64,000 nucleotides of DNA from positions 372,001 to 436,000 of the forward strand of contig NZ_CP045385.1 of NCBI RefSeq assembly GCF_009363615.1. Direction: 5' to 3'. How positions within the stretch are numbered: the first letter of the stretch is position 1; every line of letters begins with the position of its first letter. The notes below the pieces were generated by a model that saw only the letters and a list, made by a program, of their open reading frames with translations, was not told where the DNA came from and searched no databases. Below, piece by piece: positions 1 through 25,306 of the stretch. The position numbers were made by a program, and so were the translations under genes. The DNA comes from Ruegeria sp. THAF33. GTDB taxonomy: Bacteria > Pseudomonadota > Alphaproteobacteria > Rhodobacterales > Rhodobacteraceae.

Positions 1-7
1 GCATTAA

Positions 8-1048
8 TCAGGAATCCCGCCAATCAAAACCGTCGTCACAGAAGGCCATGAACCGGATCGAGGTTTCGCTGATGCGGATCAGGTCTCCGCTGGACAGGGC
101 CACGGTGCTGAGAACAGGTTTGCCGTTCAGACGTACAAGATTGGCCTTGCCGCCATGGCCCAAGTAACACTTCCGGTCTTCGGGATCATAGGCGATGACT
201 GCATGGTTCGAGCGCGAAATGCCGGTATCGCCAAAATCCAACTGAATGGCCTGGTCATCGTTGCGTCCGATTTGCATTAGGCCTTCGGTCAGAGTAATGC
301 TTGAACCCCGTCCCGGACCGGCTGTTACGACCAGCCAGCCCACCGGGAATGTCTCTTGCGCCGCTTCTGCTTTCGCTACGGGTTCGGAGGATTCGATCAG
401 GTCCTGAACATGTGTATCGGCGCGCTCAAATCCCAGAAATGTCGTCTTGACCCGTGAACGGCGATCCTCGACCGGGGCGGGGGCTGGTGCAACCTGCTCA
501 ATCACCGGCTCAGCGGTCTTTTCGACCTGCTTCGCTTCTGGGGCCGGAGCTTCCGCGACCTCAACCTCGACGACTTCCGGTTCGGTAGGTTCGGACACGA
601 CCTCGGCCGTTGCTTCCTCTGGCGAAGTCTCGGCGGGTGTTTCCGTCACATGCAGGGTGACAACCTGCTCGACCTCAACCAGTTCTTCGACATGCTCTTC
701 CACCAGAACGTTTTTCGGAGCGTCGTCCTCTTCCAAGTTGTCTTCTTCTTCCGAACTGTCTTCGGCGAAGATCGACTCCTCGGGGTCGGTCACTGCCTCC
801 GGCTCGGCCTCGTCGAACTCGGGCATCTTTTCTTCGGGGATCAGTTCATCCGTTTCCTCATAGGATTCGGATGTCATGTTTCCACCAGCCAGGGCGGCGC
901 GCAAAGCGTTGAAATCCGCAATGGGTTCCTGCTTTGCTTCTTCGCTTACGGCGCCGTCTACTGCGGCCGGTTTCTCGGCAACGTCTTCTTCTTTGGATTT
1001 GCCGGCACCTTCGAGAAGCCGGCTCAGAGGGCTTTTGTATTTGAACAT
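8..1048 (-). CDS. FHA domain protein with long acidic N-terminal region
   Basis: 346 residues. Residues 1-235 are low-complexity, rich in Glu, Ala, Val and Pro, and probably disordered. Residues 237-346 form a forkhead-associated domain, a phosphothreonine-binding fold: an IGR motif (260-262), a SRSNH motif (278-282) and an NG turn (308-309) match the conserved FHA phosphopeptide-contact positions. No signal peptide or membrane segment is visible, so it should be cytoplasmic. It lies about 200 bp downstream of the Ser/Thr kinase on the same strand, which suggests that it reads phosphothreonine marks made by that kinase, on itself or on the neighbouring GTPases; this is inference from context. 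The ATG at 1048 is preceded by a GAAGGTG-like ribosome site. The stop lies 7 bases from the window edge. Confidence 0.9.
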   Translation of the reverse strand: MFKYKSPLSRLLEGAGKSKEEDVAEKPAAVDGAVSEEAKQEPIADFNALRAALAGGNMTSESYEETDELIPEEKMPEFDEAEPEAVTDPEESIFAEDSSEEEDNLEEDDAPKNVLVEEHVEELVEVEQVVTLHVTETPAETSPEEATAEVVSEPTEPEVVEVEVAEAPAPEAKQVEKTAEPVIEQVAPAPAPVEDRRSRVKTTFLGFERADTHVQDLIESSEPVAKAEAAQETFPVGWLVVTAGPGRGSSITLTEGLMQIGRNDDQAIQLDFGDTGISRSNHAVIAYDPEDRKCYLGHGGKANLVRLNGKPVLSTVALSSGDLIRISETSIRFMAFCDDGFDWRDS

Positions 1049-1249
1049 GGTGTCGACACCTTCAAGTTAGTGACGCAGATAAGCCGCGTCGTAAGCTGCT
1101 ACTGTTCCCTGCACGTCAGCGCAGAGCCACTCAATGGATACCCATGGGAACTGGTACATTCTGCGGCGGGCCGGTTCCCGCCAGGGTGGCAAAACTTGAT
1201 ACCACCCTCAGCAAACACACACTGGCAGATCACTTTTGAACCGGTCAGA
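1049..1249. other. Intergenic gap between kinase and FHA genes
   Basis: About 200 bp with no supported gene. It holds a short GC hairpin (GGCGGG at 1165-1170 paired with CCCGCC at 1177-1182) without a following T-run, so it is not a convincing terminator. The FHA gene could have its own promoter here or be read through from the kinase gene. Confidence 0.5.
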
Positions 1250-3436
1250 TTACTCCTGTGCAAGCTGCATGATTGCGGCCGTCTCGGCCCCATTGCGCAA
1301 CACTGTCAGATTTGCCTCGGGCTGCTCGCTTGAAACGAGTGCGGCCAGCATCTCATCAAGGCTTTCCGAGCCGTCAAATGTGATGCCGGAATGGCTTTCA
1401 TTCAGCAGGACATCGTCTTTTTGCAGGCTTCCTGCCGCGTCAGCCGGAACTGCGTTCACCGTGGTTTGCCATCCGCTATTGCCTTCGGCGCTAACGGTAA
1501 AGGTGTAACCATTTTCCAATCCAACGGATCGTATGGCGGGAAGGGCCAACAGACCATTTTGCGCCCGGGTCTGACCCAGCGGGCGATAGCGGGCAGCAAC
1601 CCTTGTGTACCCATCGGCGTCAACCTTCAGGTTATCCAGAACCTGCGCCGCAAAAGGAACATCCTGACGGACTGGGCTGCCATTCAGGGTATAGATGACA
1701 GCGCCACGCTGTACCCAATCGCCGATCACGCTCATGTCCTGATTGGCGTCCACCCCCGTAACTGCAATGGTGGCTCCGGTCGAGCCGCGGCGGCGGGATG
1801 TCTGGAAGGGGATATCGACATCCCAATGCGCAAACGCCACCTGCTGTTCCGCCGGAACTCCGGCGTTGGCAATTGCATCAGTCGCAGGTGTCTCGATCTC
1901 AGACACTGCTGCAATATCAGTCGCTTCTTCCGACTGTGCCGGAACTTCGGAACGTTCAGTGTCTGCGGAGGCTGTTTCTGTGGCAGCTGGCTCCGCAGGT
2001 ACTGATTGTGCCTGCTCGACAGGCTCTTCCGGTTTGGGTTCGGGTGCAATGGCCACTTCGGGTTCGGGATCGGTGGCCTCTGTGACAGAAGGCTCTGTAA
2101 CGGGCGCCTCTGTCTCAGCGGATTGTATGTCTGCCGTGGGCTGCGCGACAGGTGTTTCTGCCTGGTCTTCCGCCTTGTCGCCGGACATCACAAAGAAACC
2201 ACCCGTGGCCAAAGCAACTGCAACAACAGCCGCGCCTGCAATCAGCTTGCCGCTGCCGCCGGACCCGCTCTGAACCACTGTATCGACAGCGACCGGGGTT
2301 TCCTCTTTCTTAGAGATTTTGGTAAGATCGACATCTTTTTTGTCTTCGTTGCCAAGAACGATGTCCGAGTTTCCGGCCAGCAGGGCCGTAACTACGGCTT
2401 CGGCGTTCTCGCTTTCGGCCTTGATCCGGGCCTTTTCTTCCTCTTTGTCTTTGCGATCCATGCCCACAATCACGGACACGGGCCGATAGGCGAATGTGTC
2501 GAACATGACACCGGGGCCGCGGAACATGCGCAACCAATCCAATGCAGATTGAAGACGATCCGTGGCGTGAACTTCCATCGCCTTGTCAATCGCCTCAAGG
2601 AACCCGTCTGGGTATCCTTCGAAACGACCGGTCAATGGCGTGTAGGGGTCATCCTGCCCGTTGTTGAACGCGTTCAGGCGGCTCTGGCCGTCGATGGGGC
2701 GTTCACCGCTGATCGCGTGATAAAGCGTGGCAGCCAGAACATATAGGTCGCTGCTGGGCCCTTGATCCGCGCCCCGGACATAGAATTCGTGCGGAGAGTA
2801 TCCATCCTTGATCACGCGCAGGGTCAGCAATGCTGCCGATTTGTTCGCCGCTTGCTCACGTGCGGCGCCAAAATCGATCAGGACGGGGTCTCCGTTTTCA
2901 TCAATCAGAATGTTGTCCGGCGAAATGTCCCGATGCAACATGCCGCTCTGGTGAATGAAAGACACCGCGGACAGCATTTTTTCGGTGACCTGAACGATGA
3001 AATCAGGGCCGCCGTCATTTTCCGGGTTTTCCACGTAATCCAGCAGGTCGCACCCACGGATGAGGTCCATTGCGATATATGCGGTGTCATTGTCTTCGAA
3101 CACCTGATGCACATCTACGATATTGGGATGTACCAGACGCGCATGATTGCGCGCCTCCTGAATAAAGAGGTCAATGATCGAGCGCAGGTCGTCCTTGAAG
3201 GATGGATCGTTTGGTTCGACCAGATCACCGTTGCGGCGGCACAGCGCTCCGGGGAAACACTCTTTGATCACGACGTCGCGCTCCAGGCTGTCGCGCGCCA
3301 GGTAAGTGATCCCAAATCCGCCGTTGCTGAGATAGCGGAGGATTTCATACTGCCCGCGCAACAGCTTTGCGCCTGGCTGCAATCCTTCAATTTTCGGTTC
3401 GTCGTGCGTCGCGCCGACAGCCTGGTTGTGGCTCAT
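1250..3436 (-). CDS. Membrane Ser/Thr protein kinase with periplasmic PDZ-like domains
   Basis: 728 residues. The N-terminal Hanks-type kinase domain (about 30-310) has a glycine loop LSNGGFGITY (36-45), the ATP-anchoring lysine in VVIKE (K58), the catalytic loop HRD (168-170) followed by ISPDN, and DFG (188-190). The usual HRDxK lysine is Ser here. A Lys/Glu-rich juxtamembrane stretch leads to one membrane helix (about 397-417), then a Glu/Pro/Ala-rich linker (420-530) and a periplasmic C-terminal region (about 540-728) with two segments resembling PDZ domains; the second contains the stretch AAGSLQKDDVLLN. The architecture suggests a receptor kinase that senses an envelope signal. No phosphatase gene is adjacent. 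It shares a strand with the FHA gene downstream and is separated from the upstream GTPase genes by a terminator. The ATG at 3436 follows a GGCGGA-like site. Confidence 0.92.
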   Translation of the reverse strand: MSHNQAVGATHDEPKIEGLQPGAKLLRGQYEILRYLSNGGFGITYLARDSLERDVVIKECFPGALCRRNGDLVEPNDPSFKDDLRSIIDLFIQEARNHARLVHPNIVDVHQVFEDNDTAYIAMDLIRGCDLLDYVENPENDGGPDFIVQVTEKMLSAVSFIHQSGMLHRDISPDNILIDENGDPVLIDFGAAREQAANKSAALLTLRVIKDGYSPHEFYVRGADQGPSSDLYVLAATLYHAISGERPIDGQSRLNAFNNGQDDPYTPLTGRFEGYPDGFLEAIDKAMEVHATDRLQSALDWLRMFRGPGVMFDTFAYRPVSVIVGMDRKDKEEEKARIKAESENAEAVVTALLAGNSDIVLGNEDKKDVDLTKISKKEETPVAVDTVVQSGSGGSGKLIAGAAVVAVALATGGFFVMSGDKAEDQAETPVAQPTADIQSAETEAPVTEPSVTEATDPEPEVAIAPEPKPEEPVEQAQSVPAEPAATETASADTERSEVPAQSEEATDIAAVSEIETPATDAIANAGVPAEQQVAFAHWDVDIPFQTSRRRGSTGATIAVTGVDANQDMSVIGDWVQRGAVIYTLNGSPVRQDVPFAAQVLDNLKVDADGYTRVAARYRPLGQTRAQNGLLALPAIRSVGLENGYTFTVSAEGNSGWQTTVNAVPADAAGSLQKDDVLLNESHSGITFDGSESLDEMLAALVSSEQPEANLTVLRNGAETAAIMQLAQE

Positions 3437-3716
3437 TTCAATCCGCCCGTTCTATTCATTTTGCGGCTTAGAAAAACCGGGCCGACAGCCCACGAACTCA
3501 CAACCAAAAACAACCGCAGGACACTTGAGAACGGTTAGACGTTTCAAATTTGACTTTATTGGGGCCGCCTGATGGCTTCACTATGGATCGTTTTTCGCAT
3601 GATGGCTTATGTTGTGCCTAGCGGTGCCTATGAGGCAATATATAGACAATGAATATGGGCTGATTGAAAACTTAAACCCGAAATCAAGCGTGTTGGTCCA
3701 CGAATTCGAAACAATA
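3437..3716. promoter_or_regulatory. Intergenic region, probable kinase promoter
   Basis: About 280 bp lie between the GTPase-operon terminator and the kinase start, with no supported gene. Because the terminator at 3717-3738 should stop transcription from the GTPase genes, a promoter for the kinase and FHA genes is expected here. I could not assign convincing -35/-10 boxes by eye. Confidence 0.4.
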
Positions 3717-3738
3717 AAGGGCCGATTCCTCGGCCCTT
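3717..3738 (-). terminator. Rho-independent terminator after GTPase D
   Basis: A perfect 9-bp stem AAGGGCCGA/TCGGCCCTT with a 4-nt loop. Read on the minus strand the stem is followed by TATTGTTTC, a T-rich tract. It lies 40 bp past the GTPase D stop and divides the GTPase operon from the kinase/FHA unit. Confidence 0.75.
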
Positions 3739-3777
3739 CGAATCGCTGCAATGCAGCTCAATCTTGACGGGAAAGCG

Positions 3778-5064
3778 TCAGGTTCCGGTTTTCGGTTGCG
3801 CCGCTGCGACCGTGCTTCCAGCCCAGGCAAGGTTGTCGCCCAGCTGCGCCAGAATGCTGATTGCGTCCTTCAATGGTGCGTCCCCGCTTTCGAATTGCAG
3901 CAACAAAAGCAAATCTGTCGCCTTTTCAAATTCTGCGGGAATCCAATCAGCTTTGGGGTCGATTTCGCCACCTTGTTCCAGCCGCTCCGCAAAATCTTCG
4001 ACGATCTCCTGACAGCTGTTCAGAAACGCGGCCGGTTCGATGTCAGAGGTTTCACGTAGATCTTCATAGATGCTTGCTATTGCGGCCAGCCAGTCCTCGA
4101 GAATGGGATTGTTCAACGGGGGCAGGGCAGACCCAAGCGTTGACTGCATCGATGTGGTGTCATTCGAAACAGGCTCTGGCTCTGCGCCCTTCAGCGCCTC
4201 AAGATAGGGCAGGAAGTCCTGTTGCAAATCTTTCCGCGCAGCCTCGAGATCGCCACGGCGCCGGTCGGATGCCGCTTCCAGCACGTGTTCCGCAAGGTTC
4301 TGCCCGCCGCAGGTTTCCCAAAGCGCAAAGTCGGGCTCGGGCTCTTGCGCCATGGCACGCACGGCGACCGGCGTACCAATTGGGACAACGGCGCGGAACA
4401 TTCCTTCTTTTTCCTTGTTCAGACGCGCAAGGACGCGGTCCAGGGCACCCTGCACAGGTGGCAGATCGGCATGTGTTACGGCAAGCAGGCTGTTGGCCCT
4501 CAGTTCGGGGGGTACCTGAGACCACAAGTGGCGCTCGGTCTCGCGCCAGGCATTGGTTCCATTTGTGCACCAGATGGCACAATCAACGAATTTCAGCAGA
4601 TCCAAAGTCGGCTTGTAGGTATCATCCAGAGCACCCGAGCCCGGAAGATCAAACAGTGATATTTCCTTGAGGGCCGGAGTATTGATGCCGACCGATATGA
4701 AATCGGGCTCCTCCTCGGCCGCTTTTTCCAGCACTATGCCGGAATAGGTCTTCGGTTCCCTGTTCCACCAACCGACAGTCGTTTCGGGCGCATCCGCGTA
4801 GGCGACGATCACCAGCGGCAATTTCAGATGCTGCGGGCCAGTTGGCAGAATGTCCGCGCCAGCCAGCATGTTCGCCAGACTTGACTTGCCTGCGCCGAAT
4901 TCCCCGGCGAAACCGATATTGACCGCGTTTGACAGACGTTCAGCGTGGGACAGAGCCCGCGCACGCATATCCTCCAACGCCTCGTCAGGCGTCAGGTTTT
5001 CAGTTGCGGTCAGGAAGCGCTCCAGTTGGCGTACTTCCTTTTCAGTTCCGGGAAATTCAATCAT
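3778..5064 (-). CDS. Dynamin-like GTPase D (short form)
   Basis: 428 residues. GTPase motifs: P-loop GEFGAGKS (54-61), switch II DLPG (139-142) and a G4-type THAD (197-200) in place of NKxD. The C-terminal half is mostly helical and contains an acidic stretch and a hydrophobic LLLLLQF segment. It shares a WCTxxTxAWRETER block (about 165-178) with GTPase B, so B and D are paralogues within the cluster. Bacterial dynamin-like proteins bind and remodel membranes and often act as unequal pairs; GTPase C is the likely partner because its stop overlaps this start (ATGA). This is the last gene of the operon before the terminator. Function beyond GTP hydrolysis is inferred. Confidence 0.88.
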   Translation of the reverse strand: MIEFPGTEKEVRQLERFLTATENLTPDEALEDMRARALSHAERLSNAVNIGFAGEFGAGKSSLANMLAGADILPTGPQHLKLPLVIVAYADAPETTVGWWNREPKTYSGIVLEKAAEEEPDFISVGINTPALKEISLFDLPGSGALDDTYKPTLDLLKFVDCAIWCTNGTNAWRETERHLWSQVPPELRANSLLAVTHADLPPVQGALDRVLARLNKEKEGMFRAVVPIGTPVAVRAMAQEPEPDFALWETCGGQNLAEHVLEAASDRRRGDLEAARKDLQQDFLPYLEALKGAEPEPVSNDTTSMQSTLGSALPPLNNPILEDWLAAIASIYEDLRETSDIEPAAFLNSCQEIVEDFAERLEQGGEIDPKADWIPAEFEKATDLLLLLQFESGDAPLKDAISILAQLGDNLAWAGSTVAAAQPKTGT

Positions 5065-7103
5065 TCCGCAGCCTCTGCTTGTCTTTCATCCGCATCGGGT
5101 GTTCCAAAAACCGTCTCCAACTCGGCTGAAATGCGACGCGCTTTGTCGAATGCACCTTGCGCTTCCGCTTGGGCGTTCAGTTCTCCTGAGTTGGACCGGT
5201 GTTCAAGATGACCGGCCAGAAGGGCCATATAGTGGTCCAGAACCGTATTCAGCCGTTCCAACAGATCGTCGCGGGTCGTGTCGATCAGGTCATCCCCGAT
5301 CAGTTCGAATTCCTGCACGATCAGCCGTTCTGCACGCGCCACAACGCTATTTCGCGAGATCAGACGCGACAACCAGTTTACACGCAATTCAACGGTAATG
5401 CCACGGGTCAGGGCGGTGGTGTCCGGCCGGAACCAACGCACAGCACTGGTGTTCATGCGATTGTCGACCGGTTCTTGCCATCCCGGCAATGCCCGCAAGG
5501 CGGCATTGCAATGCATGTCGATCGCGTAAAGCTCGCTGAGCATGCGCTGCCGAACAACTTGCGACGCCCCCTGTACCAGTTCACGCATACGCTCGCGCAA
5601 TGGCGTAAAATTGAGCTCGGTCTCTCCGCCTTTTGCCAGCAAAGGCGACTGGCCGTCCGGCCCGCGCACAACGATAGCCACCGATTCCGAGACAGTGTCA
5701 TCCATGACCCCGCGCAGATTCGACAGGACATCATCCATGTCACGCGTGATCTCCTGCGTTTTTTCAGCAATCAGTTTGCGCAGGTCGCCAAGTGTCTTGT
5801 CGCTTTCATCGGCGTTTCGAACATCCGAGCCGTCTTCATCTTGCAGCGCCCGCAAACGAACCTGAGAGCGCTCAAGCTCCCCGCGTGCGAAGCTGTCGAG
5901 ATGTTGCCAGGCCATCCGCAACTGTTCGTTGATCGGTCCGTCCGTCAAAGCCTGAGTGACATGACGACGCAGATCGGGCAGGCCCGACGCGATCATTGCG
6001 GCAAAGCGCAGAACCGCTTCGCGGCTGATCGGTCCTGGGCCTTGTTTGATCTCGGCCACACCGTTGAGATATTGCTGCATCTGTTCCGGGTGGGCGCGCA
6101 GCCATGCCAGAACGTGGTCGTGGTTCACTCCGGTTTCATCACCGGTCAGAGCATAATGCGCCCATTGCGCACTGCCCATCAGGACATCAATGTTCGAGTT
6201 GCCGAGCGCCTTTTCCAACCCGTCCAGTACATCCAGACGAACCTTGGCCGCGTCTTCGGCGCCGCCGCCCAATTCGTCCACACGGTTGATGAAGACGACG
6301 ATCTGCCCAAGTTCCAGCGCTTGCATCAACCGGAACAATTTCAGATCCGCGCGCGACAATGCCTGATGCGCGGACAGAACCACCACAAAGAAATCGGATT
6401 CCTTCAGATACTGTCGTGAAATTTCTTCGCGGATCAGCAGGGGGTCATTCACGCCGGGCGTGTCGGTGACCGTCAGCGGAAACGGAAAATGGCCCAGGTC
6501 AAAATAGACCTCGGCCTTGCGGGTGATGTCGCTGTAAAGCCCGCGATCACTGCCCGGATCCAAAGCCCCGTCTTCGGACGGATCATCCCCGGCACAGACA
6601 TATCTGGCGAGGTCATCCGACGTCAGTTCGTCCAGATCGTGCTGTTGCCCCAGCAGTTGTTCATAGCTGTCACCCAGACGTCGACGCGCCCGGACCTTCA
6701 TGGCCTCGACCTGTTCTTCGATCATCTCGCGCTTATAGCTGTCCTCGTCATCGGGAAACATGTTGCGCAGTTCTTCACCTTCGGCGATCAGCGATTGCCA
6801 TTGGTAATTGTCGAAGAAATGGAATTCGGCACCTTGGGTCCTGCCGGACGGGTGCCCGAAATGCATATCGGTGATAACAGTTGTCCAGGGGTTTACATCC
6901 GAAGGCAAATACTCGGCCTGACCGGTGAAGCCGTTGATCAGACGCGATTTTCCAGCCTTGATTTGCCCGACAAACGCAATTGACGGTTTCAGATTGCTAA
7001 GATCACCAATGATGCGCGAAATGAACTGGCGCGTTTCATCATTGGTTGCCCCGTTCATTTCTTCTGCTATGCGAATAAGTTCGCGGCGATGTGTTTCACT
7101 CAT
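5061..7103 (-). CDS. Dynamin-like GTPase C (long form)
   Basis: 680 residues. The P-loop GQIKAGKS (46-53), the block YLPSDVNPWTT just after it, DTPGVND (214-220) and NRVD (273-276) define a dynamin-family G domain. A long helical stalk follows (about 380-660), with a Trp/Arg/Leu-containing stretch near 575-600 (VNWLSRLISR) where dynamin-like proteins often carry a membrane-contacting tip. Its closest relative in the window is GTPase A, which has the same SDVNPWT and YVCxGD blocks. It lies 68 bp downstream of the 290-residue protein and overlaps GTPase D by ATGA. Likely role: membrane binding or remodelling as a C/D pair; the target membrane and trigger are unknown. Confidence 0.9.
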   Translation of the reverse strand: MSETHRRELIRIAEEMNGATNDETRQFISRIIGDLSNLKPSIAFVGQIKAGKSRLINGFTGQAEYLPSDVNPWTTVITDMHFGHPSGRTQGAEFHFFDNYQWQSLIAEGEELRNMFPDDEDSYKREMIEEQVEAMKVRARRRLGDSYEQLLGQQHDLDELTSDDLARYVCAGDDPSEDGALDPGSDRGLYSDITRKAEVYFDLGHFPFPLTVTDTPGVNDPLLIREEISRQYLKESDFFVVVLSAHQALSRADLKLFRLMQALELGQIVVFINRVDELGGGAEDAAKVRLDVLDGLEKALGNSNIDVLMGSAQWAHYALTGDETGVNHDHVLAWLRAHPEQMQQYLNGVAEIKQGPGPISREAVLRFAAMIASGLPDLRRHVTQALTDGPINEQLRMAWQHLDSFARGELERSQVRLRALQDEDGSDVRNADESDKTLGDLRKLIAEKTQEITRDMDDVLSNLRGVMDDTVSESVAIVVRGPDGQSPLLAKGGETELNFTPLRERMRELVQGASQVVRQRMLSELYAIDMHCNAALRALPGWQEPVDNRMNTSAVRWFRPDTTALTRGITVELRVNWLSRLISRNSVVARAERLIVQEFELIGDDLIDTTRDDLLERLNTVLDHYMALLAGHLEHRSNSGELNAQAEAQGAFDKARRISAELETVFGTPDADERQAEAAE

Positions 7104-7171
7104 TACTCATTACCCTGGTTACAATAAAAAACAGATTGAAGTAGTCGAAAATTTGAATTCAACGGAGGCAA

Positions 7172-8044
7172 TCATTTTTCGGCCTCCTGCAAAGAGGTCC
7201 ACAGGTTGACGACCGCCCCCAGTTTGCGGGCTTCGTGGATGGCGACCGCGATCTGACCACCGTCACTCAAAACGGCCAGACCGGCCCCTTTCCCGCCCGA
7301 TGGCCGCATGACAATCAACTGCGGGTCTTCACTCTCATGCTGAGAGTCGCCATCCCAGTTGGCAAGATCAGCCACAAAACGGGCCAGCGTGTCCTGGTCG
7401 GGATGCATCGGCTCAGATGGCTTGCAAACACCTTCCAAAAGAGGTGCGGCTTCGTCCGAACTGTCCACGAACACACGACCCGAGGCGAAGCGGCTCGACG
7501 CTTCAAAAAAACGTTGGGCAAGTGTTTCCGCTGCATCGGGTGTTGCCTCGGCGGGCAGAGAGTCATCAACAGGTTTCTCAGCACTCGGGACGACGGAAAC
7601 AATTGGCTCGGACGGAAGTTCGATGGCGGCGCAGGCTTTCTCGATTTCGCTGAAGGTGATACCTACCTCATCCACTTCAAGCGCTGTGTCCGGTCTGCCC
7701 GACGTCAACTCAAGCGGGGCAGGCGAGGCCGAGATCTCCGACACCAATCCAGCCAGCTTCTCGATCAGTTCGGCGCGTGATTCCGTTTCAAAGTCCGGAA
7801 CCTCACCTGACGGTACCTTGAAGACATCGGTGATCCGGGAGCTGTTCACCTCGATTGCCAGACAATCCCCGTTTGCGGCGGTGAATTCCAACCGGCGCGG
7901 CAATACTGTGCCACGGATTGCCCGCAATACCGCAGAACGGCGCGCGGCCGCTGTTTCTCCTGCGATCCTCACGGTCGGAGACAGCCGTGCGACCGAGGTC
8001 CGCCTGATATCTTCAAGCAGGTCGAGAATGTCCGTGTCCATCAT
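7172..8044 (-). CDS. Unrecognised protein of the GTPase operon
   Basis: 290 residues, not assigned to a family. The N-terminal 100 residues hold basic helices followed by a beta-rich stretch (LEFTAANGDCLAIEVNSS); the middle is acidic and Ser/Pro-rich and probably disordered; the last 60 residues have a beta-beta-helix pattern (LIVMRPSGGKGAGLAVLSDG, then AVAIHEARKL). No signal peptide or membrane helix. The frame is open back to a TTG at 8071 that overlaps the upstream stop, but the ATG at 8044 has a strong AGAGGGGG ribosome site (8052-8059), so I prefer it. It lies between the Roadblock-like gene and GTPase C, so it may be an adaptor that links the regulator to a GTPase (inference). Confidence 0.8.
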   Translation of the reverse strand: MMDTDILDLLEDIRRTSVARLSPTVRIAGETAAARRSAVLRAIRGTVLPRRLEFTAANGDCLAIEVNSSRITDVFKVPSGEVPDFETESRAELIEKLAGLVSEISASPAPLELTSGRPDTALEVDEVGITFSEIEKACAAIELPSEPIVSVVPSAEKPVDDSLPAEATPDAAETLAQRFFEASSRFASGRVFVDSSDEAAPLLEGVCKPSEPMHPDQDTLARFVADLANWDGDSQHESEDPQLIVMRPSGGKGAGLAVLSDGGQIAVAIHEARKLGAVVNLWTSLQEAEK

Positions 8045-8067
8045 GCCGTGACCCCCTCTGGTCCCGT

Positions 8068-8469
8068 TCAAACCGCAGCCGCAACCGGCCCCAGACTGAG
8101 ATGTGATTTGGTAAGCGCCAGTCCGACATTCGCACTGTTGCGGCAGATATAGCAGACCACATGATCAGGATATTCCTTGGTCCGCAGAAAGATGTTTAGC
8201 CTGTCCTTGGAAAAAACGGCGACTTCCCCAAAGCCAGCGCTTTCTTCGTCTGCACTGCCAGCCTGACGCAAGAGCGCTTCAAAGGCTGCAACCCCGCGCC
8301 CCTGAAACAGATTGGCCACAGCCACCGCCAAAACATCCAACGAATCCGCGCAGTCGGGATCTGAAACAGAGCTGCCCAAAAGCATCCCTGTCTCCATGTC
8401 GATATACCCGGCTGCTATACAGTCGGGTATCGTTTCCATGGCGGAGTTCAGTGCGGTTTGAATAGACAT
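8068..8469 (-). CDS. Roadblock/LC7-like small protein
   Basis: 133 residues. The pattern (helix ALNSAME, then IPDCIAAGYIDMETGMLLGSS, a central long helix around LAVAVANLFQG, strands VAVFSKDRLNIFL and HVVCYICRN, and a final helix) matches the Roadblock/LC7 fold, which in bacteria includes MglB, the GTPase-activating partner of the polarity GTPase MglA. The assignment rests on fold pattern only. Small Roadblock proteins commonly sit beside GTPase genes as regulators, so it may regulate or scaffold one of the four GTPases. Its stop is just upstream of the 290-residue protein, and it follows GTPase B by about 50 bp. Confidence 0.7.
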   Translation of the reverse strand: MSIQTALNSAMETIPDCIAAGYIDMETGMLLGSSVSDPDCADSLDVLAVAVANLFQGRGVAAFEALLRQAGSADEESAGFGEVAVFSKDRLNIFLRTKEYPDHVVCYICRNSANVGLALTKSHLSLGPVAAAV

Positions 8470-8521
8470 CTAATCCATTGTTTTCATTTATGAGTTTCTC
8501 ACTAGCTCGATTCGGATACCC

Positions 8522-10273
8522 TTACAACACATGCCATTCAGCGCCGCTATTTTCTTTGGCTTTCGGAATGGATCGAAGTGCCTCTTTGGTTTGCCTTTCG
8601 TTGTGTTCAATGGCGATCTGATCAAACTCGGCCAGAAAGGCCTTGAATACATTCTTCAGCCCTTCTGCATCTTGCGGCAGGTCTTCATTTCTCGAAACCT
8701 CCTGCCACATATCCGACGCGCTGAGAGGCGATCCGACCGCAACTTCGGGCAGGCCACTCAGCATGGCAACGCTTCTTTCAACTGCGTCAACCTGTTCGGT
8801 GGTGGCCGCTTCGATCAAACCGCTGGTTTCGGGTTCCGGCTCATACTCATCCGCAGTGTTGCCGGTTTGCGCGGCCATCAATGCCGTAATCGAGGATACA
8901 GAAACTTCTATGCCGCGATCTTCAGCCAAATCGGCCTGCTCGGATTCCTCTTCTTCGCCATCCGGCACGATCTGGGTCTCTTGCATCGAAGTGTTCAGCG
9001 AGGCAAGCACATCATCGGAATTGTCAACAGCCGCAAGAGGCGCGGGACTGATTTCAGCATCATCCAGAGCGCCCGTGTCGTCATCCAATGCGTCCTCCAG
9101 ATCGGCGTCAACGGACAGCTCGAATTCGTCTTCGTCATCCTCAAGGCCCGCGACATTCGTCAATTCCAGCGGGTCGTTCGAGGTGTCCTTGAAAAAGGAA
9201 CGCAGATCATCGCTTGTGTCGGGTTCAACGGGCAGCGGAACCGGCTCTGCCGTCATCTCTGCGCGCAGCCGTTCAGCCTCTTCCGCATCGATCCGAACCC
9301 GCTCGGCCTCATCCGAGCGCCGCTCGACCCGTGCAGGTCGTACCGGGAAGCTGGTTACAACTGTTTCGCCTACAGCGTTCGATTGCCCGGCGGCCTCCAA
9401 TGGGTTCACCAACCTCAAGGGTGCGGCTTCGTCTCTGGCAGTCGGCTCGTTTGATGAACGGGCAGGGCGCAAAGGTTTGACTTTGGGTGCGTCGGCTTGG
9501 CTCTTGTCGATCTGGTATCGAGCCAACTGATCGGCGCGGTTGTCCATAATCTGTTCCGTGATCTCCAGGAAACTGTCGATCATCTTGCCTCCGCCGCTGC
9601 GCGACCACATCTCGGCATCACCTGTCTTGTCCCGGGCAGTGATTGCGTCGCGGGCCGAGAACAGAATGGACCGATTGAACAGGTGACCAGCTTCGCGGTT
9701 AACGCGACGCAGTACTTTTTGACGGTCTTTGAGGCTCAGGGCATCTGCCCGCGTCACCAAAAGCAAAGAGTTGTGTTGCAACCTCTCGGGTAGGGAAACC
9801 CATGTCGCGCGTTCGGTTTCGCGCCAGGCTTGTGTCGCGTGGGTACACCACAAAACGCCGTTTGCCTGACCCACCGCGCGTTGCCACACATCCGTCGAGA
9901 TCTTGGGGTCCGAAATGCCGGGTGTGTCGATCAGGTCGACAGCCTCCAGAATATCGGCCTCAAGGAAGATGCGGATGAACTGTGCGTCATTGACGCCAAC
10001 GGTTTCAAGCTGATCCAGCTCGATCAGTTCAGTGCTTCCGTCATGGCGTTTGATATAGGGCGCTTGATTGCCCCAGCTAAACCAGACCGGTGGCAACTGG
10101 GTTGCCGTCACCTGCGTCGGCAAGGTCTGCGTTCGCAGCAAAAAGTTCATCAACGTGGATTTACCGGCGCTGAACTCGCCCATCAGGGCGAAAACCGGTT
10201 TGCGACGGGACCACTGCTCGATGCGTTCCCATGCCTTCGGAGAAACAAAGCGTGTTTGTGTATCTTTTGCCAT
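8522..10273 (-). CDS. Dynamin-like GTPase B (short G domain, acidic tail)
   Basis: 583 residues. The G domain begins almost at the N-terminus: P-loop GEFSAGKS (32-39), DTPGISD (116-122) and G4 TRAD (174-177). It shares the WCTxxTxAWRETER block with GTPase D. From about 265 to 500 the chain is acidic and low-complexity, with many Asp/Glu/Ser and few aromatics, so it is likely disordered. A short helical segment (about 505-575) closes the protein. This tail is unusual for a dynamin-like protein and could bind a partner or be a phosphorylation target of the cluster kinase (inference). The start lies 8 bp after the stop of GTPase A, so the two are probably co-translated as a long/short pair. Confidence 0.88.
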   Translation of the reverse strand: MAKDTQTRFVSPKAWERIEQWSRRKPVFALMGEFSAGKSTLMNFLLRTQTLPTQVTATQLPPVWFSWGNQAPYIKRHDGSTELIELDQLETVGVNDAQFIRIFLEADILEAVDLIDTPGISDPKISTDVWQRAVGQANGVLWCTHATQAWRETERATWVSLPERLQHNSLLLVTRADALSLKDRQKVLRRVNREAGHLFNRSILFSARDAITARDKTGDAEMWSRSGGGKMIDSFLEITEQIMDNRADQLARYQIDKSQADAPKVKPLRPARSSNEPTARDEAAPLRLVNPLEAAGQSNAVGETVVTSFPVRPARVERRSDEAERVRIDAEEAERLRAEMTAEPVPLPVEPDTSDDLRSFFKDTSNDPLELTNVAGLEDDEDEFELSVDADLEDALDDDTGALDDAEISPAPLAAVDNSDDVLASLNTSMQETQIVPDGEEEESEQADLAEDRGIEVSVSSITALMAAQTGNTADEYEPEPETSGLIEAATTEQVDAVERSVAMLSGLPEVAVGSPLSASDMWQEVSRNEDLPQDAEGLKNVFKAFLAEFDQIAIEHNERQTKEALRSIPKAKENSGAEWHVL

Positions 10274-10281
10274 TTTTCTAC

Positions 10282-12294
10282 TTATGCCGCTTCGTTGCTT
10301 AGATCTTTCAGTATGTCACCCAGAATCTCGTCCTTGGATTTCTGTGGCTGCAAGCCCGCCATCGCCGCCGCAGTCTGACCCGGGTTCTTGTCGGCAGAAG
10401 ACGAGATGCTCAGCAGTGTCTCCTTCTGCTCGCGCAGGAAATCCGTCAGGATCGCGCGAACGTTTTCCAGAACCGCCGCGATCTGGTTTTCCTCGATATC
10501 CTTGGTGATCGAGTTTGCCTCGGACGCGATCAGCCGCGTGTAATCCGCCGCATATGCCTCAAACCCCTTTCGGCGTTGCCACCAACGTCGCCACCAAGTG
10601 CTTTGCAAGTCCAGTGCGATCGTCCGGCCGATGCCGAGAGGCGGCGGAACACGGGGAACAATGGGCGCTTCGATGCTGAATTCGCCCAGATGGTTGCCGA
10701 GTATCTTATGATAAAGCGCTTCGACGTCCGCAGCAGCGGTTGCGTACAACGCCCCTGCATCCTTTCGCATGGCGCGGGCGAAACTGAAATAGGCAGCCTT
10801 TTGCAACGTCCGCAAACCCGCGGGATCGTATTGCCACGTGCCTTGTTCGCCATTTTTTTCAAGATGCGCGATCAGAGAGTCCGTTGCGCGTTTGACGAAA
10901 TTGTCCTCGGCTGACTTCAGACGCTCCAACACTTTGTCGCGCAGCGCATTTGTCAACTCGGCGGCTTTCTTTTCGTATTCGGCTGACACCGTGTTTATCG
11001 CCTCTTCGGGCGACACGCCGTCAAGATCCCGTGCAACGCCTTCGCCTTCGGACAGATTCTTGGCAACCGCAGTCGCGCGGATCTGACTGGCAATGTTACG
11101 CGCCCGATGGCGGACGCGGTCCATCAGGCGCGCTCCGGCACCGTCTGCAATGCGCTCATTCATGGCCAGCAGCAGATCGGGCAGACCGGACAGCGCCCAG
11201 ATTTTGTCGAGCGAGGCCGCCTGATCACCGAAACCGGCGGCCAGGTAGAACGTATTCAAGGCCTGGCGCGACTCTTCTGTCAGAATATCCGGGTTCCCGG
11301 TCAACGCCGCTTCGGCCCACAGTGCGCTGCCAAAAACGACGCTGGTATTTGTGTCGATATTGTTCTGTTTCAGCGTGTCCTGAATGCGGTCACGGATCTC
11401 TGGAACCTGGTTCACAGGATCGGACAGCTCGTCGATCCGGTTGACGAACAGGATGATCTGCCGGTTCTCGAACTGCGCGATAATGCGCATCAGGGCCATG
11501 TCCATTGTCGTCAGGGCCTGGCTTGCCGCCAACACCACAACGCAGACTTCGGATCCGCGTAGGCTGCGCAGAGTGATTTGTTCACGCACCATGAACGTAT
11601 CGTTCACACCCGGCGTGTCGCACAGTTTCAGCGCGATGGGGTATTGCGGAATGTCCATATACAGCTCGGCTGATTTGGTAACATCAGCAAACCGGCCCGT
11701 TTTGGGGTCAATATCGGGATCGTCTTCATCGCCCAGGCAAACATAACGCTGAATCAGTTCCTCATCGAAATGATCATACTGATGGCTTTGACCTAGGATC
11801 AGGTCGAAATGTTTGCCAAGACGTTCCTCTGACTTGGCCTTCATCTCACCGATCTGGCGGCGGATGTCTTCCATCTCGTCATCAGCGCCGGCGCGATTGG
11901 CCAATTCGCCAAGACGACCGCCACCGACCATCAGGTTGTCCCATTCTTCCTGCTCGAAAAACGTGAACTTGGCCTTTGTATCACCGGGTGGGCGCGTGTT
12001 GATGTTCAGGGTCGTAACCACCGACGTCCACGGGTTGACGTCTGACGGAAGCAGGCCGGGGTGCCCGGCAAGAATATTGACGATCGAGGATTTTCCGGCC
12101 TTGACCTGGCCCACCATCGTGACGCTGGCGGTAAAGTTCTCCATCCGGGTCTTGAGCGTCGCCAGCCGTGCCGAGGAGCGCGCATCAGCCACCTCAGTCA
12201 GTTGATCAATCTGAGCCGTCAGTGAAGCCATGGTTGCCGTCATCGGTGCCAGTGCTTCGTTGCCCACAGACAAAAGGTGATCGTTGCGCGCCAT
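10282..12294 (-). CDS. Dynamin-like GTPase A (long form)
   Basis: 670 residues from the ATG at 12294, which lies 2 bp past the stop of the preceding gene. The frame is open further upstream, but that extension would overlap the previous gene. Motifs: GQVKAGKS (62-69), SDVNPWT (84-90), YVCLGDE (184-190), DTPGVND (226-232) and NRID (285-288). A long helical stalk with coiled-coil character (about 430-530) follows. A conspicuous WWRRWWQRRK (567-576) after a hydrophobic ALDLQS stretch looks like a membrane-inserting tip. Paralogue of GTPase C and likely partner of GTPase B. It should act at the inner face of the cytoplasmic membrane. Confidence 0.9.
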   Translation of the reverse strand: MARNDHLLSVGNEALAPMTATMASLTAQIDQLTEVADARSSARLATLKTRMENFTASVTMVGQVKAGKSSIVNILAGHPGLLPSDVNPWTSVVTTLNINTRPPGDTKAKFTFFEQEEWDNLMVGGGRLGELANRAGADDEMEDIRRQIGEMKAKSEERLGKHFDLILGQSHQYDHFDEELIQRYVCLGDEDDPDIDPKTGRFADVTKSAELYMDIPQYPIALKLCDTPGVNDTFMVREQITLRSLRGSEVCVVVLAASQALTTMDMALMRIIAQFENRQIILFVNRIDELSDPVNQVPEIRDRIQDTLKQNNIDTNTSVVFGSALWAEAALTGNPDILTEESRQALNTFYLAAGFGDQAASLDKIWALSGLPDLLLAMNERIADGAGARLMDRVRHRARNIASQIRATAVAKNLSEGEGVARDLDGVSPEEAINTVSAEYEKKAAELTNALRDKVLERLKSAEDNFVKRATDSLIAHLEKNGEQGTWQYDPAGLRTLQKAAYFSFARAMRKDAGALYATAAADVEALYHKILGNHLGEFSIEAPIVPRVPPPLGIGRTIALDLQSTWWRRWWQRRKGFEAYAADYTRLIASEANSITKDIEENQIAAVLENVRAILTDFLREQKETLLSISSSADKNPGQTAAAMAGLQPQKSKDEILGDILKDLSNEAA

Positions 12295-12296
12295 AC

Positions 12297-12788
12297 TTAA
12301 CCTCCGGTTCCCGTTGCAGCAATTTGCGGTTCGTGCGCAACACGCCCCGCCGGAACGCTTGTCAGAGTGTCTATCCGCGCGATCAGGTCCAATGCATTGC
12401 CTAATATTTCGGCCTCGGCCCGAGGTGAAATGGTTTCGTACGACTTGGAATCGGCCAGAACTTCGATCGAGCTGAAGCGGTCGCCGTTCTCGAGGCAAGC
12501 AACGCGGCGCCCGGTTGGGAAACCTTCGGATTTTGCAGCTGGCAGCGGCATGCGTGCGTTCGCAAGCAGGTAATGTTCACCGGAATGCGTTCGAAGGGAA
12601 ATACCAAAGCCTGTGGTCGGGTGGTCGCGATTCAGAGTCTTGAGCTCACCAAGGAAACTCTCACGAGCGAAGAAGACAGCTTCTTGCTCGGCGGCAGCGG
12701 AGGGATTCAAATCGGTCACAGCAGAAAGCCTTGTATTGGAGTTGAGCAAAAAAACTCGTACAGGCGCCAAAGTGGCAAAAAGACTCAT
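12297..12788 (-). CDS. First gene of GTPase operon, unrecognised
   Basis: 163 residues from an ATG with an AGGAG site (12792-12796) only 3 nt upstream. The frame extends to 12890 but has no better site there. I recognise no family. The N-terminus is hydrophobic (LFATLAPVRVFLLN) without a clear export signal; the middle (FGISLRTHSGEHYLLANARM) looks like beta strands; the C-terminus has a helix (RAEAEILGNALDLIARID) and a Gly-rich end. As promoter-proximal gene, 2 bp from GTPase A, it is probably a dedicated part of the system. It might be a small regulatory domain like the Roadblock protein, but I cannot support that by motif. Confidence 0.7.
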   Translation of the reverse strand: MSLFATLAPVRVFLLNSNTRLSAVTDLNPSAAAEQEAVFFARESFLGELKTLNRDHPTTGFGISLRTHSGEHYLLANARMPLPAAKSEGFPTGRRVACLENGDRFSSIEVLADSKSYETISPRAEAEILGNALDLIARIDTLTSVPAGRVAHEPQIAATGTGG

Positions 12789-13552: not shown

Positions 13553-13637
13553 GCGGGTGTGGCGAAATTGGTAGACGCACCAGATTTAGGTTCTGGCGCC
13601 GCAAGGCGTGGGGGTTCAAGTCCCTCCACCCGCACCA
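13553..13637 (+). tRNA. tRNA-Leu (anticodon UAG)
   Basis: 85 nt including encoded CCA. The acceptor stem GCGGGTG (13553-13559) pairs with CACCCGC (13627-13633), followed by A and CCA (13635-13637). The anticodon stem CCAGA/TCTGG (13580-13584/13592-13596) encloses the loop TTTAGGT with anticodon TAG at 13587-13589, reading CUA (and by wobble other CUN) leucine codons. The long variable arm (GCGCCGCAAGGCGT) is typical of class II tRNA-Leu, and GGTTCAAGTCC forms the T loop. Confidence 0.97.
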
Positions 13638-24326: not shown

Positions 24327-25151
24327 CTAGTTGCCTGCCGACTGCAATCTCCGACGGTCAGCGGCGGTTGCATTTCTCTCAACGACAGTCCGATTGTACG
24401 GGTCTTTCAACTCATAACGGCCAAACTCGATCTCTTCTTTCCAGCCATTGGCATAGTTTACTTCGATATTGTTGCCCTGGCGTTCGATTTTTGTGGGTCG
24501 ACTTCCAGCAGTGCCGCCTTGCCCTGAAGAGCGCACGTTGTCGATGGAGATACCATTAGCCAATGACCGGAGCCTTGAGACATCGGCGCCTGTCGCCAGC
24601 CGTTCTTCCACAGTGCGGTTCTGAGCATTCTTTCTTTCATACCGACCGTTTTCGATTTCTTCCTTGGTTCCATCGGCATAGCGCACTTCGATGCCGTTGG
24701 CGTTCGTCTCAACCTTCGTTATGCCGGCCGAGCGCGATGATCCGCCGCCTGACCGGGATTGATCCTTTTTGCCGCTTCCTCGATTTGAACGCTTCGAGTC
24801 ATCGTCGTCATCGTCATCGTCATCGTCATCGTCGTCGCGACCACCTTTGCCGGATCCGGAATTGTCGCCCCGATCATCGTCGCGGTCATCGTCCCTGTCG
24901 TCGTCGCGATCACCACCGCGACCACTGTTGCCCGACCCCGAGTTGTCGTCCCGTTCGCCGCCACGATCATCCCCCCGGTCGTCATCGCCACCATCTCCAT
25001 CTTTTCCGCTGCCGCTTTTGGCAAAGGCATAGGCTAGTTCAAGGTGCAGGCGACCTTCCGTGTCAAACTTCGGCACGTAAGGCGTCGCGGCAATCAACGA
25101 AGCCAGAGCTGCTGTGCTGAGAAGCTGGCCCAGTTTTCCTTGAAGTTTCAT
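24327..25151 (-). CDS. Secreted Asp-rich protein with two 50-residue repeats
   Basis: 274 residues from ATG 25151, preceded by GGAGG (25158-25162). A signal peptide (KLGQLLSTAALASLIAATPY) is followed by a low-complexity region of Asp, Gly, Arg and Ser that includes a run of 13 Asp, encoded by a TCGTCA-type simple repeat. The C-terminal half holds two similar units, each with IEVRYADGTKEEIENGRYE-like and NRTVEER-like segments. The acidic region could bind Ca2+ or other cations; the neighbouring gene is a cation exporter, which fits loosely. No enzyme motif seen. Function unknown. Confidence 0.8.
   Translation of the reverse strand: MKLQGKLGQLLSTAALASLIAATPYVPKFDTEGRLHLELAYAFAKSGSGKDGDGGDDDRGDDRGGERDDNSGSGNSGRGGDRDDDRDDDRDDDRGDNSGSGKGGRDDDDDDDDDDDDDSKRSNRGSGKKDQSRSGGGSSRSAGITKVETNANGIEVRYADGTKEEIENGRYERKNAQNRTVEERLATGADVSRLRSLANGISIDNVRSSGQGGTAGSRPTKIERQGNNIEVNYANGWKEEIEFGRYELKDPYNRTVVERNATAADRRRLQSAGN
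24782..25010. repeat. Simple-sequence repeat coding the Asp-rich region
   Basis: An imperfect tri/hexanucleotide repeat (TCGTCA, TCGTCG, GATCATCG) inside the Asp-rich gene, with the purest part around 24802-24838. Such tracts are prone to slippage in multiples of three, which would change the length of the acidic run without breaking the frame. Confidence 0.8.
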
Positions 25152-25306
25152 TTTTCGCCTCCAGTTCTGTTCGACCCAATTCATGGTGTCGGTGACAGAT
25201 TATCCGGGGCTATGCGTCCCGACATCGGGCTTAGGTCTGATGAATTGCAAGCCGAACGTCCCATCCATGACCACGACTTGCGTCGCATTCGGTTGCACCG
25301 AGTGGC

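Follow-up and report, generated by a model that had tools for sequence, protein, structure and literature searches.

Bacterial dynamins have been described as single genes or as pairs, and what triggers them is unclear. In the window studied here, a stretch of 64,000 nt of Ruegeria sp. THAF33 within which all feature coordinates are numbered, the initial annotation described a leftward run of nine ORFs that combined four dynamin-like GTPases and a Roadblock-type protein with a receptor kinase and an FHA protein. Such a run raised the question of whether these genes form one system and, if so, what would switch its dynamins on.

Layout of the locus

All nine leftward ORFs were confirmed to be real, and the start of a phosphatase gene was found at the edge of the window. 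The features were as follows.

12297..12788, minus strand: unkA, about 163 aa, without known family
10282..12294, minus strand: dynB, 670 aa, full-length dynamin-like GTPase
10570..10596, minus strand: Trp-rich patch WWxxWW of dynB (W567, W568, W572)
8522..10273, minus strand: gtpC, dynamin-like G domain with a long acidic tail
8068..8469, minus strand: rbD, 133 aa, predicted Roadblock/LC7-fold protein
7172..8044, minus strand: unkE, 290 aa, two domains
7175..7546, minus strand: C-terminal domain of unkE, Roadblock-like fold with moderate support
5061..7103, minus strand: dynF, 680 aa, second full-length dynamin-like GTPase, DLP1-like, of Ruegeria-type loci
3778..5064, minus strand: gtpG, 428 aa, DLP2-like small GTPase, in which DLPG is kept
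3716..3739, minus strand: terminator-like hairpin 3' of gtpG (2 sites in 3400-3800 against 0.5 expected)
1250..3436, minus strand: pkn, 728 aa, Ser/Thr kinase with a PpkA-like catalytic domain and a C-terminal outer part
8..1048, minus strand: fha, 346 aa, FHA protein with an acidic N-terminal part
428..448, minus strand: KTTFLGF motif ahead of the FHA domain in fha, its first Thr being T202
1..4, minus strand: start of pp2c (PP2C phosphatase), the rest of which lies beyond the window (L003:11222-12004)

From upstream to downstream, the order was unkA, dynB, gtpC, rbD, unkE, dynF, gtpG, pkn and fha. The end of dynF was overlapped by gtpG by 4 bases, and gtpG was separated from pkn by a gap of 341 bp that contained the terminator-like hairpin. 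The start codons of several of these genes were picked from alignments. In the same genome, pp2c was followed by sbp1 and sbp2 (LysM/solute-binding) and then by a family-2 glycosyltransferase. The closest plasmid record, the 743-kb plasmid unnamed1 of Ruegeria sp. AD91A, carried a dynB 98% identical to that of the window in the same gene order, and four of its genes bore the annotation "dynamin family protein". A tRNA-Leu lay upstream of the module at 13553-13637, and a tRNA-Leu was located upstream of the module in five of the ten named loci scanned, all five from Ruegeria (L006, L007, L011, L033, and L055). Elsewhere in the window, 24327-25184 encoded a secreted-looking protein with long Asp/Gly/Arg-rich repeats (arrays at about 24798-24988), and 46412-47170 held a tandem repeat with a period of 318 bp and 2.4 copies.

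Co-occurrence and gene order in the Rhodobacterales

Profile searches of the same 149 genomes of the Rhodobacterales found dynB in 60, fha in 59, and rbD in 55 (47 with the first rbD profile, 55 with a deeper one). All 55 genomes with rbD also carried dynB and fha, and 86 of the 149 carried none of the three; the Fisher p values, which ignore shared ancestry, were 3e-32 for dynB/fha and 2e-36 for rbD/fha. The genomes with matches all bore one family label, and by genus rbD was present in 23 of 72. Three genomes had fha without dynB (G009, G060, and G133), and four had dynB without fha (G019, G063, G088, and G094).

For 42 of the 55 genomes with rbD, the neighbourhood was read over as much as 20 kb; the genome of the window was represented by the window itself, and eleven of the remaining 12 were covered in 3-kb pieces, with G127 left out. 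Gene order in the family outside Ruegeria, the genus of the window, differed from that of the window. There, 39 of the 48 rbD regions (36 genomes) showed exactly the eight-gene order pkn-fha-pp2c-gtpG-dynB-gtpC-rbD-unkE on one strand, the common or single-operon form. The nine other regions comprised three divergent loci of G057, two regions cut by contig ends, two in which unkE fell below the threshold, L127 with binding proteins at the expected place of the kinase, and a region of G072 whose rbD lay with a gtpC-like ORF near the end of a contig that did not carry the kinase genes. At the junctions fha-pp2c (43/43), dynB-gtpC (43/44), and pp2c-gtpG (42/44) of the single-operon rbD regions, the genes lay within 30 bp of each other, and pp2c-gtpG had a median overlap of 1 bp in the common form, which couples the signalling half to the GTPase half.

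Among the 67 loci found through dynB in the named genomes, 55 contained all eight of unkA, dynB, gtpC, rbD, unkE, dynF, gtpG, and pkn. The other 12 included three contigs shorter than 10 kb, L022, which met the contig end before a full kinase, and L069 of Halocynthiibacter, in which rbD was absent and every other tested gene present. Seven of the 67 (Actibacterium, Defluviimonas, and two MAGs) lacked dynF, and one of these, L063, held the GTPase half only, the kinase half being absent from its 22 kb. The loci of Actibacterium and Defluviimonas carried the two halves next to each other on opposite strands, the GTPases on one and kinase/FHA/PP2C on the other. Since gtpC adjoined unkE with no rbD between them in Halocynthiibacter (L069:12111-14716) and G072 (L191:13576-14960), rbD can be lost or moved. 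The profile of unkA was matched in 64 of the 67 loci, and unkA was absent from the single-operon form. Convergent with the module, L109:11047-15252 encoded a 1401-aa ORF with Gly/Asp-rich, calcium-binding-like repeats (by eye), and a related ORF was present in L111.

The initial annotation had proposed that the kinase/FHA pair, the Roadblock gene, and the GTPases travel together, and the survey of neighbourhoods bore this out: the genes are co-conserved because they co-occur and their two halves stay neighbours, even when inverted. The signalling genes and the GTPase/Roadblock genes are one unit.

Features of the encoded proteins

Dynamin_N was above the cut-off in all four GTPases of the window. 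The closest solved structures were C. jejuni DLP1 for dynB and dynF and DLP2 for gtpC and gtpG (PDB 5owv, chains A and C). DLP1 was matched at 1.5e-12 by a profile built from ten dynB rows and four dynF rows (dynF alone, 2.4e-15), and the matches to DLP2 were 2e-18 for gtpC and 1.4e-21 for gtpG. As dynB adjoins gtpC and dynF adjoins gtpG, the window contains two DLP1/DLP2-like pairs. The four dynamins of the initial annotation thus stood for the Ruegeria form and were not constant, since the common form has three dynamin-like proteins, namely the DLP1-like dynB, an intact DLP2-like gtpC, and a degenerate DLP2-like gtpG. According to the available part of the report on the C. jejuni proteins (PMC6104087), DLP1 and DLP2 are likewise encoded by adjacent large and partner genes, and the formation of their tetramer triggers GTPase activity and lipid binding, with tethering of liposomes; that part describes no kinase, FHA, PP2C, or Roadblock partner. 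At 614 aa, DLP2 of C. jejuni is a full-length protein; by contrast, gtpC consists mainly of the G domain, and gtpG is in most cases degenerate.

The G motifs were intact in all aligned orthologues of dynB (24/24; 23 of 25 picks and the window), dynF (9/9), and gtpC (22/22; 21 of 25 picks and the window). In the 19 single-operon loci, gtpC was 273-338 aa long and therefore had no room for a stalk or trunk. The alignment of gtpG comprised the window, two additional sequences, and 17 of 25 picks, the remaining 8 of which proved to be gtpC; DLPG was found in 5 of these 20 (Ruegeria-type rows) and DVSG in 1 of 20 (Actibacterium). In the single-operon copies, DxxG was absent at the aligned place in 43/43 and the P-loop GK[ST] in 13 of these, counts that rest on alignments of divergent proteins. 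Owing to these losses, gtpG of the single-operon form is most likely a pseudo-GTPase. Residues W567, W568, and W572 of the Trp-rich patch in dynB were invariant in 24/24, and the patch, by its position alone, may resemble the lipid-binding paddle of BDLP. The length of 670-680 aa and the WWxxWW patch would fit a neck and trunk with a lipid-binding tip.

In G019, G063, and G088, two pairs formed an operon with neither Roadblock nor signalling genes within 20 kb, and a single dynamin pair was found in L193-L195 and G660. Because such pairs exist by themselves, the DLP1/DLP2-like pair looks like the core, to which signalling and Roadblock genes were added. Four-GTPase operons of two DLP1/DLP2-like pairs, with no Roadblock, kinase, or FHA gene in 20 kb, were seen at L183:7251-14320, L184, and L186. 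LeoABC and DynA are bacterial dynamins too, but gave weak profile matches only, and we know of no signalling genes of the kinase/FHA/PP2C type in either system.

The proteins rbD, unkE, and unkA had no convincing family in Pfam or NCBIfam, and profile-profile comparison revealed no relation among the three. For rbD (59 of 70 picks and the window aligned), fold prediction gave the Roadblock order of helix, two strands, helix, three strands, and helix, nearest to MglB with 12-20% identity to MglB chains; on this prediction, rbD is a Roadblock/LC7-fold protein. Pfam Roadblock matched none of 12 rbD members, and a profile search of the PDB returned weak matches, the best to LAMTOR4 (E 0.22). No Ras-like GTPase partner was found in the module, and, unlike in the case of MglB, the GTPases beside the Roadblock gene belong to the dynamin family. 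Roadblock proteins often assemble into heteromeric GAP or GEF complexes (PMC9481161). Roadblock regulation of a dynamin was not found in the open-licence literature, among the matches listed.

Outside the family, rbD-like proteins occurred in 30 of 398 genomes of the phylum, and the dynamin set was absent from all 18 rbD-like regions read (17 of the 30 genomes). The four strongest of these relatives adjoined an ABC-type ATPase (by eye in L164-L166, by Pfam in L163), as in the ABC ATPase-Roadblock-DSP phosphatase sets (Pfam PF22785, Tc-R-P), and in L163 the DSP phosphatase domain was part of the ATPase ORF. Sets of this ABC-Roadblock-phosphatase kind differ from the module in that they contain no dynamins and have a Tyr/dual-specificity phosphatase instead of kinase-FHA-PP2C. 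A hybrid run at L103:4203-10906 (G057), with a DSP-type phosphatase (PF22785), rbD, unkE, an ABC-type ATPase, dynF, and gtpG, is a bridge from the dynamin module to the ABC-Roadblock-phosphatase sets of other Pseudomonadota. At L179:8994-13622 (G354), the rbD relative lay amid a run of several small ORFs that resembled Roadblock proteins, together with one like a metallo-beta-lactamase (by eye).

PpkA-Fha1-PppA is the threonine phosphorylation pathway of type VI secretion (T6SS), and the module likewise has a PpkA-like kinase, an FHA protein, and a PP2C as neighbouring genes. It differs from this pathway in its coupling to dynamins, in an FHA domain nearest to GarA, and in a genome without the T6SS sheath gene. 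The profile of pkn matched PpkA at 1.1e-64 (next match, 2.3e-31), and one PpkA-like kinase was found in the own genome of the window. The catalytic residues K58, H168-R169-D170, N175, and D188-F189-G190 were invariant in 19/19 kinases. A hydropathy scan of the same 19 gave a likely transmembrane helix in 12, including the kinase of the window (one helix, near residue 398), a doubtful one in 3, and none in 4. Envelope sensing by a receptor kinase, as first proposed, is thus not universal, and a PDZ_6 match in 2 of the 19 points weakly to the PDZ-like domains that had been placed in the periplasm. At L105:5421-8223 (G057), the kinase and FHA genes were separated from the GTPase by genes for a PBP-like/OmpA protein and a binding protein of the DctP type; the periplasmic binding proteins that accompany this kinase differ between lineages.

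The residues of the FHA site were conserved in the 23 aligned fha proteins (22 of 23 picks and the window). The Thr of KT[RT]xxGF, some 60 residues N-terminal to the first FHA-site residue, was present in 23/23, and the strict motif in 22/23. The best solved match was GarA, for the FHA domain only and at a modest 2.6e-5. GarA and OdhI have a regulatory Thr at a similar place, and T202 of fha is a candidate phospho-acceptor, judged from the alignment. The PP2C motif residues were invariant in 19/19, and pp2c matched PppA less well (4e-23) than other bacterial PP2Cs (1e-37). The predicted phosphothreonine writer and reader of the initial annotation are joined in this set by a PP2C as eraser, and some lineages add periplasmic binding proteins. 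A search for VipB found no T6SS sheath gene in the own genome, whereas the E. coli control was matched, and type VI secretion was rejected for this genome.

A proposed phosphorylation-gated dynamin module and its alternatives

We lean towards the reading that the genes encode a self-contained, phosphorylation-gated dynamin module. Its basis is computed as far as gene set, co-occurrence, order, folds, and the state of the catalytic motifs are concerned, and from these we infer interactions, phospho-site, direction of control, and membrane activity. A PpkA-type kinase, membrane-anchored in some lineages and aided there by periplasmic binding proteins, would act as the sensor and write phosphothreonine on the FHA protein. 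The FHA protein would read this mark, possibly by way of the conserved Thr in the KT[RT]xxGF motif that it carries itself, in the manner of GarA/OdhI, and the PP2C would erase the mark. The output would be a dynamin complex of the membrane-binding, DLP1-like dynB, the intact, stalk-poor gtpC, and the mostly catalytically dead gtpG; Ruegeria would have a second pair, dynF-gtpG, with an intact gtpG. Most likely, rbD and probably unkE would serve the GTPases as scaffolds or govern their nucleotide state, in the way that MglB acts on MglA. Phosphorylation would release a block, upon which the complex would assemble on the inner membrane and then tether, stabilise, or reshape it. Our favoured role for this complex would be membrane surveillance, by likeness to DynA (PMC8844932).

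In another reading, the T6SS-like threonine pathway and the Roadblock switch would place or open an envelope machine for vesicle formation, polarity, or secretion, with the dynamins shaping the membrane there. The PpkA-like kinase suits this reading, as does a Roadblock fold nearest to MglB, a polarity GAP (PMC9481161). At L104:3897-8650 (G057), unkE was directly followed on its strand by genes that by eye resemble those of chemotaxis, and this, like a response-regulator-like cluster in 6 of 40 regions, points the same way. The reading is nevertheless unlikely, given that the T6SS sheath gene is missing from the own genome, that a Ras-like GTPase was not found in the module, and that no flank cluster, and hence no recurrent extra partner gene, appeared in more than 8 of the 40 regions.

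The spread of the module bears on a role in anti-phage defence, which the initial annotation had suggested and in which kinase-triggered dynamins would delay lysis or seal membrane damage upon infection. B. subtilis DynA delays phage-induced lysis (PMC8844932). The distribution is patchy (rbD in 55/149), dynB was carried by 17 plasmid records (12 from Leisingera, 4 from Ruegeria, and 1 from Rhodobacter), all typed as non-mobilizable in PLSDB, and distant copies coexist in one genome (G031, G053, and G112) and fall into different clades of the dynB tree. Three of the 17 plasmids were read (two Leisingera and one Ruegeria); a 33-kb Leisingera plasmid had exactly the eight-gene order, and one of 72 kb had the set in convergent form, with binding proteins between kinase and FHA. 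Given the plasmid copies, the lack of a recurrent flank cluster, and the different clades of same-genome copies, the module looks self-contained and accessory. In wider scans, dynB was found in 1 of 190 and 2 of 385 genomes of the class, all in the own family, and in 9 of 398 genomes of the phylum, 8 of them within the family; the ninth, G660, had only the dynamin and GTPase pair in 20 kb. These scans scored at most two to six candidates per genome and may miss weaker members.

A general kinase domain is also common to the kinase and those of PADLOC, and weak matches link the dynamins to LeoA/LeoBC, but the kinase matches are generic and those to LeoA/LeoBC partial, with a best E of 6e-10. A match to a PADLOC family (1e-15) was seen in just 3 of 116 flank ORFs, which were picked by length and include some that are not genes (one of 117 was dropped because it overlapped the module), and the reading as a defence island was rejected. 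Likewise, dynB had no match in 50,697 phage records, and a phage-borne origin was rejected. Phage defence thus gained no positive support and is distinctly improbable. The reading that a kinase/FHA/PP2C unit only happens to lie beside an independent dynamin/Roadblock unit can be dismissed almost entirely. The hairpin between the two units in the window, the genomes with fha or dynB alone, L063 with its GTPase half, L189 (kinase-FHA-PP2C with no GTPase in 20 kb), and L187 (a different FHA/PP2C set) would fit it. However, a gtpG-like ORF is present even in the fha-only region L188, at a contig end; in the common form, pp2c overlaps gtpG; the adjacency survives inversion and is kept on two of the plasmids read; and rbD never occurred without both dynB and fha in the 149 genomes.

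The phosphorylation-gated dynamin module could quite possibly represent a new class of regulated dynamin machine, in which a threonine phosphorylation switch of T6SS style, detached from secretion, would control a heterotypic dynamin complex with a pseudo-GTPase subunit and a nucleotide cycle set by Roadblock proteins. If so, no earlier case of a dynamin-family GTPase regulated by Roadblock proteins would be known to us, and the machine would parallel, in bacteria, the kinase-controlled dynamins and Ragulator-controlled GTPases of eukaryotes. Neither a link between threonine phosphorylation and dynamins nor this gene set appeared in the open-licence literature, among the matches listed. The eight-gene set, widespread in the Rhodobacteraceae and also present on plasmids, names candidate inputs (kinase, FHA protein, PP2C, and binding proteins) and candidate regulators of dynamins (Roadblock proteins and a pseudo-GTPase), so that the question of how bacterial dynamins switch on becomes directly testable. 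The module would tie threonine phosphorylation to the membrane work of dynamins, and its presence in many marine Rhodobacteraceae suggests that they place a dynamin machine under phosphorylation control.
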